Positions 1-59,832 of a stretch of DNA of 64,000 bases are shown here, in pieces. The first letter of the stretch is position 1; every line of letters begins with the position of its first letter. Location: contig CAMKKZ010000007.1 of assembly GCA_946413525.1 (NCBI GenBank), positions 62,001 through 126,000 on the forward strand. The letters run 5' to 3'. Made by a program: the position numbers and the translations under genes. Under the pieces are notes generated by a model. The model ran no database searches. It was not told the DNA's origin and saw nothing but the letters and a program-made list of their open reading frames with translations. Source of the stretch: an uncultured Oribacterium sp. Lineage in GTDB: Bacteria; Bacillota; Clostridia; Lachnospirales; Lachnospiraceae.

Positions 1-221
1 ATATTTTCTGCCTGGTTTTTGGCATCTGTCAAAATAGCTTCCTGTTGGGAAATGATTTTCTGATATTTTTTAATTTCTTCAGGAATACGAAGACGCAATT
101 CCACCAAAAGTTCTTCCATCTCCTCCTTGTTCACCAAAATCCTTGTATTAGACAAGGGCTGGTATTTGCAGCTATCAATATATTCTTCGATTTCCCCTAT
201 TAATTGTTCAATTCTGCTCAT
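1..221 (-). CDS. Partial CDS (3' end outside window), small helical/coiled-coil protein, V-ATPase subunit H-like
   Basis: Reverse-strand ATG at 219-221, open to window edge: MSRIEQLIGEIEEYIDSCKYQPLSNTRILVNKEEMEELLVELRLRIPEEIKKYQ...; directly downstream of coaD. Confidence 0.7.
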   Translation of the reverse strand, partial: MSRIEQLIGEIEEYIDSCKYQPLSNTRILVNKEEMEELLVELRLRIPEEIKKYQKIISQQEAILTDAKNQAEN

Positions 222-391
222 ATGCCATACACCCACTCTTCCGCTTTCCAATTTGTTCCCAAACTTGTTCCTTAATTTGTTCCTATTACAGATTTCAATT
301 TCCAGATTTCAATTTTCAGTTTTTGATTTTCAGTTTTTTTGCTCCCTGTTCAGAGATTTCAAAGGTGGATAAGCTCTCGATATAACAAGCG

Positions 392-883
392 TTATCGCGC
401 ACTCCGACTTGCAAACTTTTCTTTTAGCCGCTCTTCCACCAGGGCCGGAACAAAAGCATGCACATCTCCCCCAAAGGAAGCAATTTCCTTCACGGTACTT
501 GAACTCAGATAGGAATATTTCAGGTTAGTAGTCAGAAAAACAGTTTCAATGTCCGGAGCCATAACCTTGTTGGTTTGGGCAAGCTGAAGTTCGTACTCGA
601 AATCGGTAACTGCCCTGAGTCCTCGCATAATCACGCTTGCGCCGCATTCATGCGCATAGTCCACGGTAAGGCCATCAAAAGACCTGACAGAAACATTTTC
701 GTAACTTACTGTCAACTCCTTAATCATTTTAACACGTTCAGGCATAGAAAACAATGCTGTTTTTGAACTGTTCAACAGCACGCCTACAATAAGCCTGTCT
801 ACAATTTTCGAGCTTCTGCTGATAATGTCAAGATGTCCGAGCGTAACCGGATCAAACGATCCCGGATATAAACCGATTATCAT
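392..883 (-). CDS. coaD: Pantetheine-phosphate adenylyltransferase
   Basis: [21 protein letters not shown]... nucleotidyltransferase motif; start trimmed from the longer ORF (392..982). Confidence 0.95.
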
Positions 884-52683: not shown

Positions 52684-55600
52684 CTATGCGGCTTCCTTCT
52701 GCTCCGTTTCAGCCTGTTCTCCCGAGGCGCTCTCCGCAATGGATTCCACTTCCACGCCATAGGGCAGTCCCTTCGCGTTTTCCTCTTTCGCAAGCTTCTT
52801 ATAAACCTCTTCCGGCTTTGTGCCGAAGGATGACACGACCGCGCTGTTAATAATCCTCCCGGTCTCAAGCTCCCGGGCAAGATTGCGGGCGGCGCTCACA
52901 TTGAGCTCGCAGGGAACAAATTTGGCCCTGACATTGTAACCGGCCTCCTCGAAGGGCTTGATATAGGTTTCCATCAGGCTGTCATAATCGTCTGCCACAA
53001 GAGGAAGGATGACATTCGTGCCCTTCAAATCTCCCTCCGTGAAAGCCTCCATAGCCCGCTCCATGAGCATCATGCTCTCCATATGTACCGCGTCAGCGGC
53101 GCCGCCGTGGCTTTCCTGGAATTCAGGAAGCATTTCCTTGATCACGTCGCAATCCAGGATGAATGCCTTCATCTCCTCACTGTCGGGATCCGTCACCCTG
53201 CTGGACTTGCCCGAGGCGGGAAGACCCAGCACAAGCTCCATTTCATAACCTTTTTCCAACGGCCCGTCGTAAACGTATTTATGAAGCTGCGTCTCCTCGT
53301 TAATGCTTTCTGTCCTGGCGGAACCGATGGAAAGAAAGTCGTCCAGAATATAGTTTCGAAGCATCCTTCTCGCCGCCGTGTCTATCTCGGAGGTTTTTCC
53401 ATAATAATCAATATAATAAGCGGACAGCGCGTCAATCTGATCTAACAGAGGGCTTTCCACTATTTCCTCCATTGTAGGATAATCCCCGGCCTTGATCCTC
53501 GTATACATCTCCCTTGCCTCATCTCCTTCAATGATCAGATGATCGGGAGAAGGTTCCCAGGTAACGGGCCTGACTCCGATTTCGGCAAGCTTTTTTAAAT
53601 CCGCAGCCAAAGAGGCAGATTCCTCTGATTCGCTTTCTGAAGCGGATTCTTTTTCAGACTCCTCTTCAGAAGCTTCGGCATCTTTTGACTCTTCTACGGA
53701 TTCCTTTTCAGAGGCTTTGGCATCTTTTGATTCTGCCTCTGATTCTTCATCGAATGCTTTGCTTTCTTTCTGTTCCGCTTCCTCTTCGGTCTTTTCTTCG
53801 TCGCTTCCGATTTCCGCAGCCTTCTCTTCCGAATCGTCCTCTTTTACGGAACCGGCTTTCATCGCCGCAGTCTCCGCGCTTTCCTCGATAGCGGTCTCGG
53901 AAATCTCGATCCTTCCCTGCCCATAGGGATCCTCATATTCCTCTCCGATATTCCCGCCAAGCTTCTCAATGATATAATCGATCAGTACCTTCTTTTCAAT
54001 GCCGGCGTCTTCAATCTCGACTTCGGCGCCGTCAAAGCCGGTCTGGCCGTCCCCGTTATCCAAAAGCGTATAATCCAGCCCTGCGACAGTGTAAATCTTT
54101 TCCGGATCCAGCGGCTCATTCCCAAACATCACGTTTTTGACGCGCCTCTGCCTTGTGATCCCTGTCATCATACCGTTTTCATTCGCGGTACAACCGCTGT
54201 CTACGGTAAGGTCGACCTGGTAAGTAATGCCGGAAACATCAAGGAAGGCGCCGTTTTCCTCCGGAATCCCCCTCGCGCCCCATTCCAGGGCATCCAGAAT
54301 CTGCTGCCCGCTTGCCTTGACTACGCAGACGTTATTGTCCCAGGGGAATACTCCCAGCAAATCCCCTTTCGTGACGTCCCCTCTGGAAATTCCGTCCCGG
54401 ATTCCGCCGCCATTTATCACGCCGATATCCGCGCCTGTCATGACCCTGAAGGCATCAGAGCAGAGATCACCAATGTTTGTTTCCGTGCGTCTCACGATCC
54501 TGATTGAGTTTCCGCTTGTATCATTTAAAACCGGATCATAAATGAAAAGATTTACATCGCTATGGGCCAGAACCTCCCCAAGGGTTTTCTCAAATTCCTT
54601 TTCTGTTTCCTCAATCGCCTCACTGACCTCATTTTGGATATTCAGGAATGCCGGAGCATCGATGGAATTTGGCCAGCTCCATACATCTGTTTCTTCGATC
54701 CCCCGATCCGTAATGAGGCTGTAACCAATGCAGCTCATCTTCGTCCCGACGGCGGAACGGATCACATTTTCCCCGTCCTTGTTTTTCATGACGACCTGCA
54801 CAGTATCGTGGCTGTGGCCATCGAGAAATACGTCTATACCGTTCGTATGGGATATGACGTCGGCATAGGTATATGGCTTTACGGCCTCCTCAAGCCCCAT
54901 GTGCCCCATGACATAGACATAATCGGCGCCCTCCGCCCGGCAGTCGTCAACGGCTTTCTGTACCGCTTCATAGACGTCGCTGCCATCCTCATTCTGCAGG
55001 AAGTCATATACGTATTCCCCATCCTCATTCTTCTCGCGCATAGGCGCGGAGGTGTTCATGGTTTCCGGAGTCGTCACACCAACAAAGCCGATCTTTTTTC
55101 CAGCCGCCTCCACGATCTGGTAAGGAGGAAGAAGAAGCTCTCCTCCCTTATTGAAATTGCAGCTTATGTACGGGAATTCAGCCATATCTTTCAGCTTTAT
55201 GAACTGCTCAACACCATAATCGAACTCATGGTTACCCGGAATCGCAACATCATATCCGACGGCATTCATCAGCTTGAGCAGAGCCTCCCCGTTCGTAAGG
55301 GTGCCGATCGCCTCCCCCTGGACACAGTCACCGTCATCCACCAGTATGGTGTCATAGCCTCGCTCTTCAAGATTGTTCCTGATCGCATACAGACCGGCAA
55401 AGCCAAAGCCCTGGCTGACGCCGCAATGGACATCGCTGGTATAGAGGATGTATATCCCCTTCTTCTCATCTGCATCCTCTAAGTCCCCTTCGGCAGCATC
55501 CGCCTTGGCTTCCTCGTCCCCGGCATCCTTTTCAGCCGCTTCAGCCTTGCCTTCTCCGTCCTTTTCTTCGGCATCCTTTTCAGCCGCTTCTGCCTTGGCT

Positions 55601-55887
55601 TCCTCGTCTTCGGAATCCTTTTCGGCAGCATCCGCCTTTACATCCTCGTCCTCGGAAGACTCTTCCTCCTGAGCCTTATCTTCTGCAGCCTTTTCCGTGT
55701 CCACCTCGTCCTTTTTTGACTCAGAATCATCCAGGGCCTCCTCCGCTTCGGCTTTTACCGAGGAGATAAATGCCTGGACAGAAGACTTCCCACTTTGCTT
55801 CTCAGGCTCCTTGTCCGCATAAGCAGTGATCATGATGAACATAATCATGCTTAAAAACAACATTCCCGCAATCGTCTTTTTTCTCAT
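52684..55887 (-). CDS. Secreted 5'-nucleotidase/UshA-like metallophosphoesterase fused to a zeta-toxin-like P-loop domain
   Basis: Signal peptide; ILYTSDVHCG, VDDGDCVQGE, PGNHEFDYG, DGHSHD, NGGGIRDGISRGDVTKGD; acidic linker; LVLGLPASGKSS, ILDCDVIKEMLPEF, AARNLARELETGR. Confidence 0.88.
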   Translation of the reverse strand: MRKKTIAGMLFLSMIMFIMITAYADKEPEKQSGKSSVQAFISSVKAEAEEALDDSESKKDEVDTEKAAEDKAQEEESSEDEDVKADAAEKDSEDEEAKAEAAEKDAEEKDGEGKAEAAEKDAGDEEAKADAAEGDLEDADEKKGIYILYTSDVHCGVSQGFGFAGLYAIRNNLEERGYDTILVDDGDCVQGEAIGTLTNGEALLKLMNAVGYDVAIPGNHEFDYGVEQFIKLKDMAEFPYISCNFNKGGELLLPPYQIVEAAGKKIGFVGVTTPETMNTSAPMREKNEDGEYVYDFLQNEDGSDVYEAVQKAVDDCRAEGADYVYVMGHMGLEEAVKPYTYADVISHTNGIDVFLDGHSHDTVQVVMKNKDGENVIRSAVGTKMSCIGYSLITDRGIEETDVWSWPNSIDAPAFLNIQNEVSEAIEETEKEFEKTLGEVLAHSDVNLFIYDPVLNDTSGNSIRIVRRTETNIGDLCSDAFRVMTGADIGVINGGGIRDGISRGDVTKGDLLGVFPWDNNVCVVKASGQQILDALEWGARGIPEENGAFLDVSGITYQVDLTVDSGCTANENGMMTGITRQRRVKNVMFGNEPLDPEKIYTVAGLDYTLLDNGDGQTGFDGAEVEIEDAGIEKKVLIDYIIEKLGGNIGEEYEDPYGQGRIEISETAIEESAETAAMKAGSVKEDDSEEKAAEIGSDEEKTEEEAEQKESKAFDEESEAESKDAKASEKESVEESKDAEASEEESEKESASESESEESASLAADLKKLAEIGVRPVTWEPSPDHLIIEGDEAREMYTRIKAGDYPTMEEIVESPLLDQIDALSAYYIDYYGKTSEIDTAARRMLRNYILDDFLSIGSARTESINEETQLHKYVYDGPLEKGYEMELVLGLPASGKSSRVTDPDSEEMKAFILDCDVIKEMLPEFQESHGGAADAVHMESMMLMERAMEAFTEGDLKGTNVILPLVADDYDSLMETYIKPFEEAGYNVRAKFVPCELNVSAARNLARELETGRIINSAVVSSFGTKPEEVYKKLAKEENAKGLPYGVEVESIAESASGEQAETEQKEAA

Positions 55888-55914: not shown

Positions 55915-56100
55915 CAGTCAAGTATGAAAGGCAAGCCTTTCATACTTCATTTGTGCCGCTGGCGCGACACAAATGGGACTCAATGCCTGCGGCATCAAGT
56001 CAAAGTATGAAAAGCAAGCTTTTCATACTTCATTTGTGCCGCTGACGCGTCACAGATGGGTCTCAATGCCTGCGGCATCAAGTCAAAGTATGAAAGGCTG
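55915..56100. repeat. Family D repeats, tandem copies D3 and D4 (inverted relative to D1/D2)
   Basis: CTTTCATACTTCATTTGTGCCGCTGGCGCGACACAAATGGGACTCAATGCCTGCGGCATCAAGTCAAAGTATGAAAAGC, twice. Confidence 0.88.
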
Positions 56101-56101
56101 C

Positions 56102-59100
56102 CTATTTGCTTCCATCCAGCATAGCCCCCAGGGGGTGAGCATTGCCGCCATAGTAGCCCCACTTCCCGGTTTTTTCATCATACCGCCATCCCGAGATGCC
56201 CGTAGGTATTTCATTGAAATGGTAATCGGCGCCATCCACCGTCCTCCTGCCCGTGGCCATGGCCCCGCCGGATGGGTCAAGGTAATAACAGAAACCATCT
56301 GAAGGATCTGAGAACCACCCTGTCACCATAGCGCCGGTAATTCCGTCCCGGCTATATGCCGTCCCGTCCCCTTCTTCAGCAAGGTAATAAAACCTGCCAT
56401 CATCGTCCCGTATCCAGCCCGTCATCATTTTCCCGTCCCGGGCGAAATAGAACCAATGCGTCTTTTCGTCTGAGGTCCTGATGTATTTCCAGCCCACCGA
56501 ATGCTGCCCCGTCAAGGCCTCCGTAAAGTACCAGTTCCCTTCATCGTCCTTTTGCCAGACGCCATCCGTTACAGTACTTGTCACCGGCGTAATGGCCGCA
56601 TGACCAGCGTTAAGATTCCCGCCTCCTCCTCCGGAACCGCCAGACCCACCGGAGCCTCCTGATCTGCTATTCCCACCTGTCACATAAATGATGCACGAAG
56701 CCTCGCCGAGTCCGGCCCTCGCGGTAATGACCGCCCTGCCGGGACGCAGGGCAAAGACATTGCCATCCTGGTCAACGGAGGCGATTTGCGGGTTGTCACT
56801 GTTCCATACCACCTTAAGGTCCTGATCTTCTCCGGCCTTTATCGTTGCAATGAGTTTCCGGGTCGAGCCGGCGTCAAGGAAAAGCTCGTAATCACTTAAG
56901 GAAATCTCAGCAGGGACAGCGTCTGAAATCCTGACCGCAACCGTCACACTCAGCGAGGGGTCGGAGCTGCTGGCCGCCGTCACATTCACGACGCCGCTTC
57001 CTTCCACGGTAAATACCGCCGCCTTCTTCCCCGCCTTGCTTCGGTAAAGCTCCTCCGAAATGTTTTCCACATCCCCCTCGTAGCTCCAGAGGATGGAGTC
57101 ATCGTTCAGATTCGTCCCGTCATTTGATTCAAGCTCCGGAAGCAGGACGACTTCTTTTTTTGTACCGGGCATATAGGTAACGTCGATCACGCCGTCCACG
57201 ATGTTGTCCCCTCCTGCCGCGTCCAGCTTGATGCCCCGGGGATAGCCCGTAAGCCGCTGATAATTCTTAAGTACGGCGGATTCCGCGGCCTTGACCGTTG
57301 CAAAAGCCCAGCAAAGATTCGTCTGCCCCTGATCCTTCACCTCCGTGACCTGTCCCAGCTTGTCCAGGTTATATTTCTTTGGGAGCTTCAGGCTGAGGGC
57401 CCCGCCCTTGAAATCAAGGTAACGGAGCAATTCCCCGGATTCATCCACGACCAGGCCGCCGTTATAGCTGTCATTTTCATCGAATTCAACCGAAGAAGAC
57501 GAATCTGAAGCAGCTTTCATAGCATTCCTTGTATTGCCGCGGTATGCGGGGGTGGCAACGGACTTTGGCAGGTTGGAAGGCGTTGCCGGGAAAATGTTTG
57601 CGGAATCCGTATCGTCATCATCTTTTCCGCTCCCCCCCTCTACAAAGGCAGTCTCCGAGGAATCAACTCCGGATACGCTTCCCGAAGGGTCATTCCCCGA
57701 GATGCTTTTTGATGAATCAACTCCGGGCGCGCTTTCAGAAGGATCATCCTCTGACGCTTTTTCCGAAGAAGGCTTTTCCGGAACGGGAGGAAAGGCCGTG
57801 CCATTCTCCAGGCTTTCCGCATTTACCCCTTCCGCCTCGTATACGATATCGGCATTTTCACTTTCCAGTAAATCGAAGCAATTCTTTCCCTCCGCGAATT
57901 CGTAGAAATCGGCAATGCTCACCATGCTGTATCGCCCATCGCTGTAATCAGACATGTCCGCATAGGTCATGGCATGTATGATCGGAAAATCCGCATGGGG
58001 GGAAAGCCAGTAAGGATCCTTGAAATCCCCGCCCCCCTTATAGTAGGCTGCCACCCCTTCTCCGCCGAACACAGTTGACAAGTCCCCAATGAATGACGAG
58101 CTGTAAAACATGCCGACCTTTTCATTTGCCGGGGAGGGCAGTTCAAGATCCACATAAACGGTAAATCTGGAGCCGGCCGGGATAGCGATGCCCCGATCCA
58201 GCCTCACGGTAAATACCCCCGCATAGGTACGGTAGCCACTCTTCAGAAGGTCCGGCTTCCCATCGTCCACAGACACATAAACATTGTACTTATATCCCGT
58301 ATAAGGCGAGCCGAAAGCCACCGCCCTGAGCAGCTCGTCCTTGTCTGTAGTATTTTCAAAGGACTGACTGGCGGCTCCCTTTCTTTTCCCCTTGAACCTC
58401 ATCGCGGCCTGGGAGCTCCCGGCAGCCTGGGATACCCCGATATCATTGGTATAAAGGTGGTTGTAATTATCATAGCTTTCAACCTGCCCGAAAACCACCC
58501 GGTCATTGCCCATTCCCATCTGCTGGTCATAATAGGAAATGTAAAAGTCCCCATTTTCATGGGTATCGGTCCCCCAGGAATTCCGGACGATCCAGGCCCC
58601 GTCTCCGGGGGGCATATACTCAAACTCCTTCCCCTCAACGGTGATGAACCTTTTGAATTTTTCTTTGGGAATCGTGTCATCCCAGCCGATCAGGGTCACA
58701 TTATGATTGCTTTTAAGATTGTACTTTTCCGCGTATTTCTTCATGAACTCCATGGGAAGGTAATAATACTCATTTTCATCTTTGTTCTCCCCCGACCAGA
58801 AGACCTGATGAACACACATAGCCACAACCACAGAGCCATAAGTCATCAACGCGTTTTTCCAATGATTCATGTAATCGCCTTTACCCAACTCGGAGTAATC
58901 CTTCGCTCCGGGGAGCTCGATCATGTCCTGGACATGCAGCTCCGGTGTTTCCGGCTTGAACTGCATATAATTGGATGGCGTGGCCTTGTAGACATACTCC
59001 TCCGACGGCATGACCTTCTCCGTGACAGGACCGGCCCAGTTCTGGAAATATGCTCCCCCCAGGAAAGCGTCGGCGCCGATATTCTTGCTGGACTTTTTGG

Positions 59101-59674
59101 CGGGGTCATCGTAACCGTTATAGTAATGGAAGGGGGAAACGTTGTTATTGACCTTTCCGGCAAGATCAAACTCCGAGAAATTCGGCATTACCTCATGAGA
59201 AGAAAGGGAATCCAGCGTCAGGGTGAAATCCATTCCCGCATCAACTGAGTCTTCATCCGGGATGACATAAAGCTGATAATAACCTGCCGGCAGCCCCTTC
59301 TCCTCGATTTTCTGGGAACTATAGGGACGGGCCTGGACGTTCACCGGCTTATCCTTCCTGCAGAGAAGGAGGTAGGACACCCGCTCAGCCTCCAGGAGAA
59401 TACTGATGTCAGTGTCCTCATCAAGGTAAAAGCCGTAATATGCCATTTCGTCCTTTTCCAGCCTGTCAGATACCCGGCTCGGGAAGGAAATGACATCCTC
59501 TCCGTTCTCAAGGACCGCGTTCCATAACGCGGCAAAAAACTCCTCCGACTCATTCAAAATGTAATCCCGGATATCCTGCGCCGCGGAAACCGGCTGCAGC
59601 ACCATTAAAAAAGACATCACGAAAACAAGTACGGACGCGATCAAGGCACGCGATTTCTTTCCTGAAAACACCAT
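56102..59674 (-). CDS. Secreted C1 (papain-like) peptidase with apparently permuted catalytic core, Ig-like and cell-wall-binding repeats
   Basis: Signal peptide; SNHNVTLIGWDD and WIVRNSWGTD near residues 324-365; VKDQGQTNLCWAFATVKAAES at Cys788; BIg2-like segment; Gly-rich linker; choline-binding-like GWxxxxGxWYY repeats. Confidence 0.85.
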   Translation of the reverse strand: MVFSGKKSRALIASVLVFVMSFLMVLQPVSAAQDIRDYILNESEEFFAALWNAVLENGEDVISFPSRVSDRLEKDEMAYYGFYLDEDTDISILLEAERVSYLLLCRKDKPVNVQARPYSSQKIEEKGLPAGYYQLYVIPDEDSVDAGMDFTLTLDSLSSHEVMPNFSEFDLAGKVNNNVSPFHYYNGYDDPAKKSSKNIGADAFLGGAYFQNWAGPVTEKVMPSEEYVYKATPSNYMQFKPETPELHVQDMIELPGAKDYSELGKGDYMNHWKNALMTYGSVVVAMCVHQVFWSGENKDENEYYYLPMEFMKKYAEKYNLKSNHNVTLIGWDDTIPKEKFKRFITVEGKEFEYMPPGDGAWIVRNSWGTDTHENGDFYISYYDQQMGMGNDRVVFGQVESYDNYNHLYTNDIGVSQAAGSSQAAMRFKGKRKGAASQSFENTTDKDELLRAVAFGSPYTGYKYNVYVSVDDGKPDLLKSGYRTYAGVFTVRLDRGIAIPAGSRFTVYVDLELPSPANEKVGMFYSSSFIGDLSTVFGGEGVAAYYKGGGDFKDPYWLSPHADFPIIHAMTYADMSDYSDGRYSMVSIADFYEFAEGKNCFDLLESENADIVYEAEGVNAESLENGTAFPPVPEKPSSEKASEDDPSESAPGVDSSKSISGNDPSGSVSGVDSSETAFVEGGSGKDDDDTDSANIFPATPSNLPKSVATPAYRGNTRNAMKAASDSSSSVEFDENDSYNGGLVVDESGELLRYLDFKGGALSLKLPKKYNLDKLGQVTEVKDQGQTNLCWAFATVKAAESAVLKNYQRLTGYPRGIKLDAAGGDNIVDGVIDVTYMPGTKKEVVLLPELESNDGTNLNDDSILWSYEGDVENISEELYRSKAGKKAAVFTVEGSGVVNVTAASSSDPSLSVTVAVRISDAVPAEISLSDYELFLDAGSTRKLIATIKAGEDQDLKVVWNSDNPQIASVDQDGNVFALRPGRAVITARAGLGEASCIIYVTGGNSRSGGSGGSGGSGGGGGNLNAGHAAITPVTSTVTDGVWQKDDEGNWYFTEALTGQHSVGWKYIRTSDEKTHWFYFARDGKMMTGWIRDDDGRFYYLAEEGDGTAYSRDGITGAMVTGWFSDPSDGFCYYLDPSGGAMATGRRTVDGADYHFNEIPTGISGWRYDEKTGKWGYYGGNAHPLGAMLDGSK

Positions 59675-59684
59675 GCTCCCTCCT

Positions 59685-59832
59685 GATAATAAAGTGCTTA
59701 TTTGGCCATTTTAACTGCTGACAAAGAGCTGCGATATCGCAGGCTATATGGCTCATATGGCTCCTGATATTAAAGTGCTTTTCCGGCCATTTTACCTGCC
59801 GACAAAAGAATGCGGTATAAAGGTATAACGCT
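59685..59832 (-). repeat. Family A repeats, tandem copies A14 and A15
   Basis: AATAAAGTGCTTATTTGGCCATTTTAACTGCTGACAAAGAGCTGCGATATCGCAGGCTATATGGC, second copy at about 59763; ends at the Shine-Dalgarno of the C1 peptidase. Confidence 0.8.

Follow-up and report, generated by a model that had tools for sequence, protein, structure and literature searches.

A circularly permuted, Cwp84-related C1A peptidase-lectin protein in an uncultured Oribacterium, with relatives in other genera

The locus and the encoded protein

The window, meaning the whole 64,000-nucleotide stretch of uncultured Oribacterium sp. DNA that was analysed, carries on its minus strand at 56102-59674 a frame of 1190 codons that starts with ATG and is free of internal stops. 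The reading elements, domains and catalytic residues of this gene are as follows, in the order in which they are translated.

59676..59684, minus strand: strong Shine-Dalgarno sequence AGGAGGGAG, directly 5' of the ATG, read directly from the sequence
59582..59674, minus strand: Sec-type signal peptide, residues 1-31 (MVFSGKKSRALIASVLVFVMSFLMVLQPVSA), predicted by sequence inspection
59204..59515, minus strand: PPC-type (bacterial pre-peptidase C-terminal) beta domain, residues ~54-157, from a structure match and the Pfam match of a homologue
58475..59197, minus strand: C1A peptidase core ("heavy chain", cathepsin residue 42 to the end), residues ~160-400, starting VMPNFSEFDLAG; PF00112 positions 73-214 and VIA-align
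58703..58705, minus strand: catalytic His324, motif SNHNVTLIGWDD, at the same column in 13/13 permuted proteins
58580..58582, minus strand: catalytic Asn365, IVRNSWG; Asn in 10/13 and Asp in 3/13 permuted proteins
57956..58474, minus strand: Lectin_like domain of the Cwp84 type, residues ~401-573; PF18560 at 430-514 (E 1.8e-7) and alignment to Cwp84 up to its residue 497
57398..57955, minus strand: acidic, Ser-rich low-complexity tether, residues ~574-759; 68% D/E/S/T/A/P/G/N/Q, net charge -28, pLDDT mostly about 30
57251..57397, minus strand: relocated N-terminal peptidase segment ("light chain", cathepsin residues 1-41), residues ~760-808; PF00112 positions 2-43
57329..57331, minus strand: oxyanion-hole Gln782; Q-x5-C in 13/13 permuted proteins
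57311..57313, minus strand: catalytic Cys788, QGQTNLCWAF; Cys in 13/13 permuted proteins
56960..57247, minus strand: Ig-like region after the Cys helix, residues ~810-905; custom HMM matches, conserved within the permuted clade that includes the window protein
56708..56905, minus strand: Big_2 bacterial Ig-like domain, residues 924-989; PF02368, E 3.5e-10
56156..56557, minus strand: choline-binding/cell-wall-binding repeats, residues ~1040-1173; PF19127, E 1.8e-14

The PPC assignment comes from a structure comparison of the first model, residues 31-131 of which match 5sv5 with Z 13.3, and from PF04151, which scores above its cut-off in the homologue from Claveliimonas bilis (L113). The Lectin_like domain lies directly C-terminal of the peptidase core, as in Cwp84-type C1A peptidase-lectin proteins. 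Within the C-terminal repeats, Pfam choline-binding repeats begin at about residue 1071, and models of choline-binding surface proteins match 1040-1173 with scores far under their whole-protein cut-offs. In the Pfam scan no propeptide model matched the 1190-residue protein, and in chain order the tether fills that place. The same scan, at E up to 1, gave PF00112 but no match to the C92, LRAT or PPPDE models.

The gene leader is tandemly duplicated at 59680-59818, in copies of 58 nt that are 81% alike and 81 nt apart; the upstream copy contains an AGGAG-ATG of its own and, after it, a frame of four codons (MSHI-stop). Immediately downstream of the protease gene, at 55920-56106, lie two tandem repeats of 83 nt that are 93% alike and have 28-nt palindromic arms, possibly a dispersed repeat element. 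The next gene downstream, at 52684-55887 on the minus strand, encodes a 5'-nucleotidase (Metallophos and 5_nucleotid_C).

Order of the catalytic residues

Papain is a textbook enzyme in which the order of the active-site residues is fixed. Members of peptidase family C1 carry them in the linear order Gln-Cys-His-Asn. The window protein holds the complete set, each residue once, in the order His-Asn-Gln-Cys: its sole Gln782/Cys788 motif lies 420-460 residues C-terminal of its sole His324 and Asn365 motifs. A motif scan of the whole 1190-residue protein found no second CW[AST]F or Q-x5-C-W, and thus no overlooked QGxCWAF motif N-terminal to His324.

The Pfam match to Peptidase_C1 (PF00112) is split accordingly. 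Residues 211-390 correspond to profile positions 73-214, the His/Asn half, and a second piece around Cys788, found by the family search of the organism's own genome at 119260-119382 of contig C7, corresponds to positions 2-43; in that search the His/Asn half spanned positions 75-214. Both pieces are significant singly (E 5.9e-6 and 2.3e-5) and exceed the 20.7-bit cut-off. Since positions 2-43 and 73-214 lie in one frame, the family model is covered once with its order swapped. The segment that bears the Cys comprises the entry strand, the oxyanion Gln and the catalytic Cys helix, and it matches cathepsins by phmmer with E 2.4e-4.

These results uphold what had been proposed from the letters alone, namely an uninterrupted 1190-codon frame in which His324 and Asn365 precede a single Gln/Cys motif with its Cys at 788, a low-complexity linker ahead of the domain-entry sequence (the acidic, Ser-rich residues ~574-759), and Ig-like and cell-wall-binding repeats behind the Cys (the PF02368 and PF19127 matches).

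Homologues with the same order

Relatives were sought in 397 genomes of the same family, with the frames then read, and in public genomes. For the public genome scan the query was a four-row alignment of permuted proteins, and HMMs were applied per segment thereafter; a single-sequence query against the public genome contigs gave no relatives, whereas the four-row alignment did. The same order was found in 12 further distinct proteins, several of them from other genera and one from Actinomycetota. With the window protein this makes 13, counting distinct proteins with complete catalytic sets, and each of the 13 has one His, one Asn or Asp and one Q-x5-C-W motif in the order His-Asn-Gln-Cys. The order therefore marks a permuted variant of family C1, not an ordinary member. 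Chance can be excluded, because each half of PF00112 is significant alone and 12 other proteins show this order as well.

Within the same family, full-length permuted matches occur in 5/397 genomes. One genome of another genus (G243) encodes two permuted proteins (L064, L066), a second, which consists of a single 6.9 Mb contig (G062), encodes one (L065), and further same-family searches added G216 (L037/L208) and G133 (L210). The public genome scan contributed Clostridium sp. chh4-2 (L111), the complete chromosome of Claveliimonas bilis (L113, NZ_AP024845.1), Candidatus Ruminococcus avistercoris (L115), an Oscillospiraceae MAG with two tandem genes of permuted order (L149), an Eubacteriales MAG whose protein is almost identical to G682/L085 (L152), and an Atopobiaceae MAG of Actinomycetota (L167). 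A fragment in G412 (L069) shows the lectin-like domain followed by the Cys. The 16 other genomes of the genus gave no peptidase relatives, only wall-repeat and Ig matches, and a phylum-wide sample of 397 further genomes gave no additional full-length permuted match among hits at E up to 1e-30. The canonical order is the rule, with 120 distinct canonical cores against 12 permuted ones in the first collection.

The flanking genes differ between G243 and G062, so that no conserved neighbourhood was found in these two genomes and no clue from an operon is available. In the protein of Ca. Ruminococcus avistercoris (L115, 3619-8340) the permuted peptidase carries an N-terminal 5'-nucleotidase in the same chain, and by eye L037 of G216 seems to have the same fusion.

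A chimeric assembly or a single local rearrangement of the DNA could in principle produce such an order, and the source genome is a 70-contig draft. Its probability is negligible given the 12 further proteins, some from finished or single-contig genomes such as G062 and the C. bilis chromosome, and given that the genome holds no second copy of the Cys segment that could have served the 56102-59674 gene as donor. Long repeats at the junctions of a rearrangement are likewise absent. DNA shuffling from a genomic donor of the Cys segment was also considered and rejected: the only other C1 gene of the genome (L067, 3202-6516) is complete and canonical, with the order Cys137-His309-Asn341. The permuted order is thus real: this C1A peptidase-lectin protein has undergone a circular permutation that is conserved. 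The sequence-only reading had left a permutation and a split core side by side; the permutation is supported by a breakpoint that can be placed at papain/cathepsin residue ~42 and by an order kept across genera and two phyla.

Conservation is uneven along the chain. Among the 13 proteins the Cys segment is the best-conserved piece, with a mean pairwise identity of 47%, ahead of the core (about 36%) and the lectin-like domain (33%), and the tether is the least conserved (24%). In the homologues the tether measures 84-207 residues, of which D/E/S/T/A/P/G/N/Q make up 60-74%, and its net charge is always acidic; the two Pfam pieces meet near profile position 46-48. A conserved Cys segment on an unconserved tether is what would be expected if the segment must come back to a fixed place.

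All 13 permuted proteins retain Gln, Cys, Trp and His. Asp replaces the catalytic Asn in L064, L065 and L111 (KDSYG/RDSYG), and one of the 13 has NSKG in place of NSWG, so that catalytic strength may vary. The three Asp replacements would also suit a pseudoenzyme, a rearranged relic that binds through its lectin-like and Ig domains and does not cut. Such a relic would be expected to lose the four invariant residues in some lineage, and their retention at about 36% core identity makes this reading very improbable.

Origin of the permutation

The permutation likely arose by tandem duplication of a canonical peptidase-lectin unit and complementary losses, in which the first copy would have lost its Cys segment and the second everything but its Cys segment. 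The intermediate required by this route is possible, since a two-copy chain exists: a protein from Candidatus Aveggerthella (L138, 5422-10170) contains two C1 peptidase domains, both canonical, with CW at 164 and 981 and His motifs at about 331 and 1200. A first look at this protein had misleadingly suggested a permuted order, and it was taken out of the permuted set.

In trees built from the core only, the permuted proteins cluster: their labels change 1-3 times, compared with about 11.4-11.8 times after shuffling. One such tree needs 1 change (SH-aLRT 86); another needs 3 but does not reject a single clade (p-AU 0.506). It is plausible, with moderate tree support, that the permutation arose once.

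Predicted structure

Two AlphaFold2 models were obtained. The first run used an alignment of nine permuted rows and reached a mean pLDDT of 52.8. The second, a model of residues 138-835, used 88 rows, including canonical homologues added as separate rows per half and one misaligned row of a Cys fragment, and reached a mean pLDDT of 67.1 and a pTM of 0.71. Because the canonical rows cover the halves separately, they carry no pairing signal between them.

In both runs the core and lectin-like domain resemble Cwp84. The first gives Z 25.5, with model residues 136..549 on chain residues 133..497; the second gives Z 27.9 over 351 residues (rmsd 2.9, 24% identity), with model residues 25..436 on Cwp84 135..497 by VIA-align, a start just past the Cwp84 catalytic helix. 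Against many mature cathepsins the second model scores Z about 12, with model residues 23..260 on cathepsin 42..215 by VIA-align, and its third-ranked chain is 1huc_B, the heavy chain of human cathepsin B by itself (50..254). The reported structural alignments span the core and lectin-like domain only; the Cys segment falls outside them, as is to be expected when an alignment follows the order of the sequence.

In the second run the Cys segment has a pLDDT of 75-95 per ten-residue block and most of the preceding linker about 30. In the prediction Cys788 is the first residue of the catalytic helix, and DSSP assigns residues 767-769 to a strand, which requires a hydrogen-bonding partner. Cys788 is thus predicted with confidence in a papain-like N-terminal strand and catalytic helix, not in the unrelated fold that had been named as the outcome counting against a permutation. 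Overall, the models point to a two-lobed papain fold, with a core like that of cathepsins and Cwp84 and the part missing from it predicted as a strand and a helix. The pLDDT of the segment, the strand at 767-769 and the conservation together suggest that the Cys segment docks onto the core.

Interpretation

The gene most probably encodes a secreted, cell-wall-anchored, Cwp84-related C1A cysteine protease that is circularly permuted and whose Cys segment returns to the core of the same chain (probability about 0.86). The opening of the chain would lie in the loop behind the catalytic helix, at cathepsin residue ~42. The heavy chain, with His and Asn, would come first and be followed by the lectin-like domain, and the light chain, with the entry strand, oxyanion Gln and Cys helix, would be attached C-terminal of that domain through the tether of 84-207 residues. 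By returning to its own core, the tethered segment would complete an ordinary papain active site of Gln782, Cys788, His324 and Asn365. The protein is probably proteolytic; its substrates are presumably surface components, and its anchoring would proceed through the choline-binding repeats.

A segment on its own chain has a higher effective concentration than one on another molecule. This argues for back-folding over completion of the His/Asn core of a neighbouring molecule, by domain swap or by trans assembly at the cell surface. The long tether with its very low prediction confidence makes a swap physically possible, and the wall-binding repeats should crowd the molecules; the tether nevertheless varies from 84 to 207 residues with no effect of its length on motif conservation, and assembly in trans appears improbable.

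The two-chain form of cathepsin B, nicked at the light/heavy junction behind the catalytic helix, is active. Moving the light-chain segment to the other end need therefore not harm the fold. As a refinement of the back-folded arrangement, the tether might be cleaved after secretion, by the protein itself or by another protease, so that the active form has two chains like cathepsin B. This is a possible refinement, though the odds are against it. The break sits at the natural division of cathepsin B (1huc_B starts at residue 50), and in Cwp84 a propeptide occupies the groove (PMC4089489), the tether having the same place in chain order. The tether is, however, the least conserved piece, with no common cleavage site evident, and after a cut the core would keep its C-terminal wall anchor only through the docked segment.

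In Cwp84 the propeptide lies ahead of the Cys segment, winds around the lectin-like domain and reaches into the active-site groove (PMC4089489). As the tether likewise precedes the Cys segment and follows the lectin-like domain, it may take the path of the propeptide, and by this analogy it may act as a propeptide, a tether or both. Whether the permutation serves as a regulatory device, with the tether running along the lectin-like domain and the active-site groove, is rather doubtful. In that case the enzyme would have a zymogen switch in which half of the active site is withheld, its activity being governed by whether the segment with the Cys is docked or released at the cell surface.

With a conserved natural permutation at the cathepsin B nick, it can be tested directly which chain connections the fold requires. 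Automatic annotation, like searches that rely on motif order, can mistake active proteases of this kind for truncated ones. In addition, the natural split-protease layout is usable in engineering, and a new zymogen logic may exist in common gut bacteria.

Comparison with known systems

Permutation as such has precedents among papain-like enzymes. A structural description of permuted NlpC/P60 enzymes dates from 2011 (PMC3142127), and a 2023 classification of papain-like enzymes lists several families in which the Cys helix is permuted, with cluster I (cathepsins and similar) canonical (PMC10318531). A 2023 study on the origins of the papain family does not mention permutation (PMC10380794). In the open-access literature no report of a permuted C1/papain-family enzyme was found.

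YaeF/YiiX (C92), LRAT, PPPDE (C97) and LupA likewise have the Cys helix C-terminal of the His (PMC3142127, PMC10318531). They are compact NlpC/P60-like or deubiquitinase domains that target lipids or ubiquitin/SUMO, whereas the window protein is predicted to have the two-lobed C1 papain fold of cluster I, with a whole extra domain between His/Asn and Cys. Cathepsin B (PDB 1huc) shares the position of the break, the window protein being divided at its natural light/heavy junction and aligning with the heavy chain over 50..254. Cathepsin B, however, is synthesised light chain first, while the window protein comes heavy chain first and is joined through the lectin-like domain and the tether.

The canonical C1 peptidase-lectin proteins of Lachnospiraceae and other groups (the 120 distinct cores) carry the same C1 motifs, but with the Cys before His and Asn. 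Cwp84 of Clostridioides difficile (PDB 4ci7, 4d59) is a secreted, surface-attached protein with the same peptidase-lectin module (PF00112 and PF18560). Its chain runs propeptide-Cys116-His262-Asn287-lectin-wall repeats (PMC4089489). In the window protein, the part that precedes Cwp84 residue ~133 and carries the catalytic Cys now stands behind the lectin-like domain, with a PPC domain in front and choline-binding repeats as the putative anchor.
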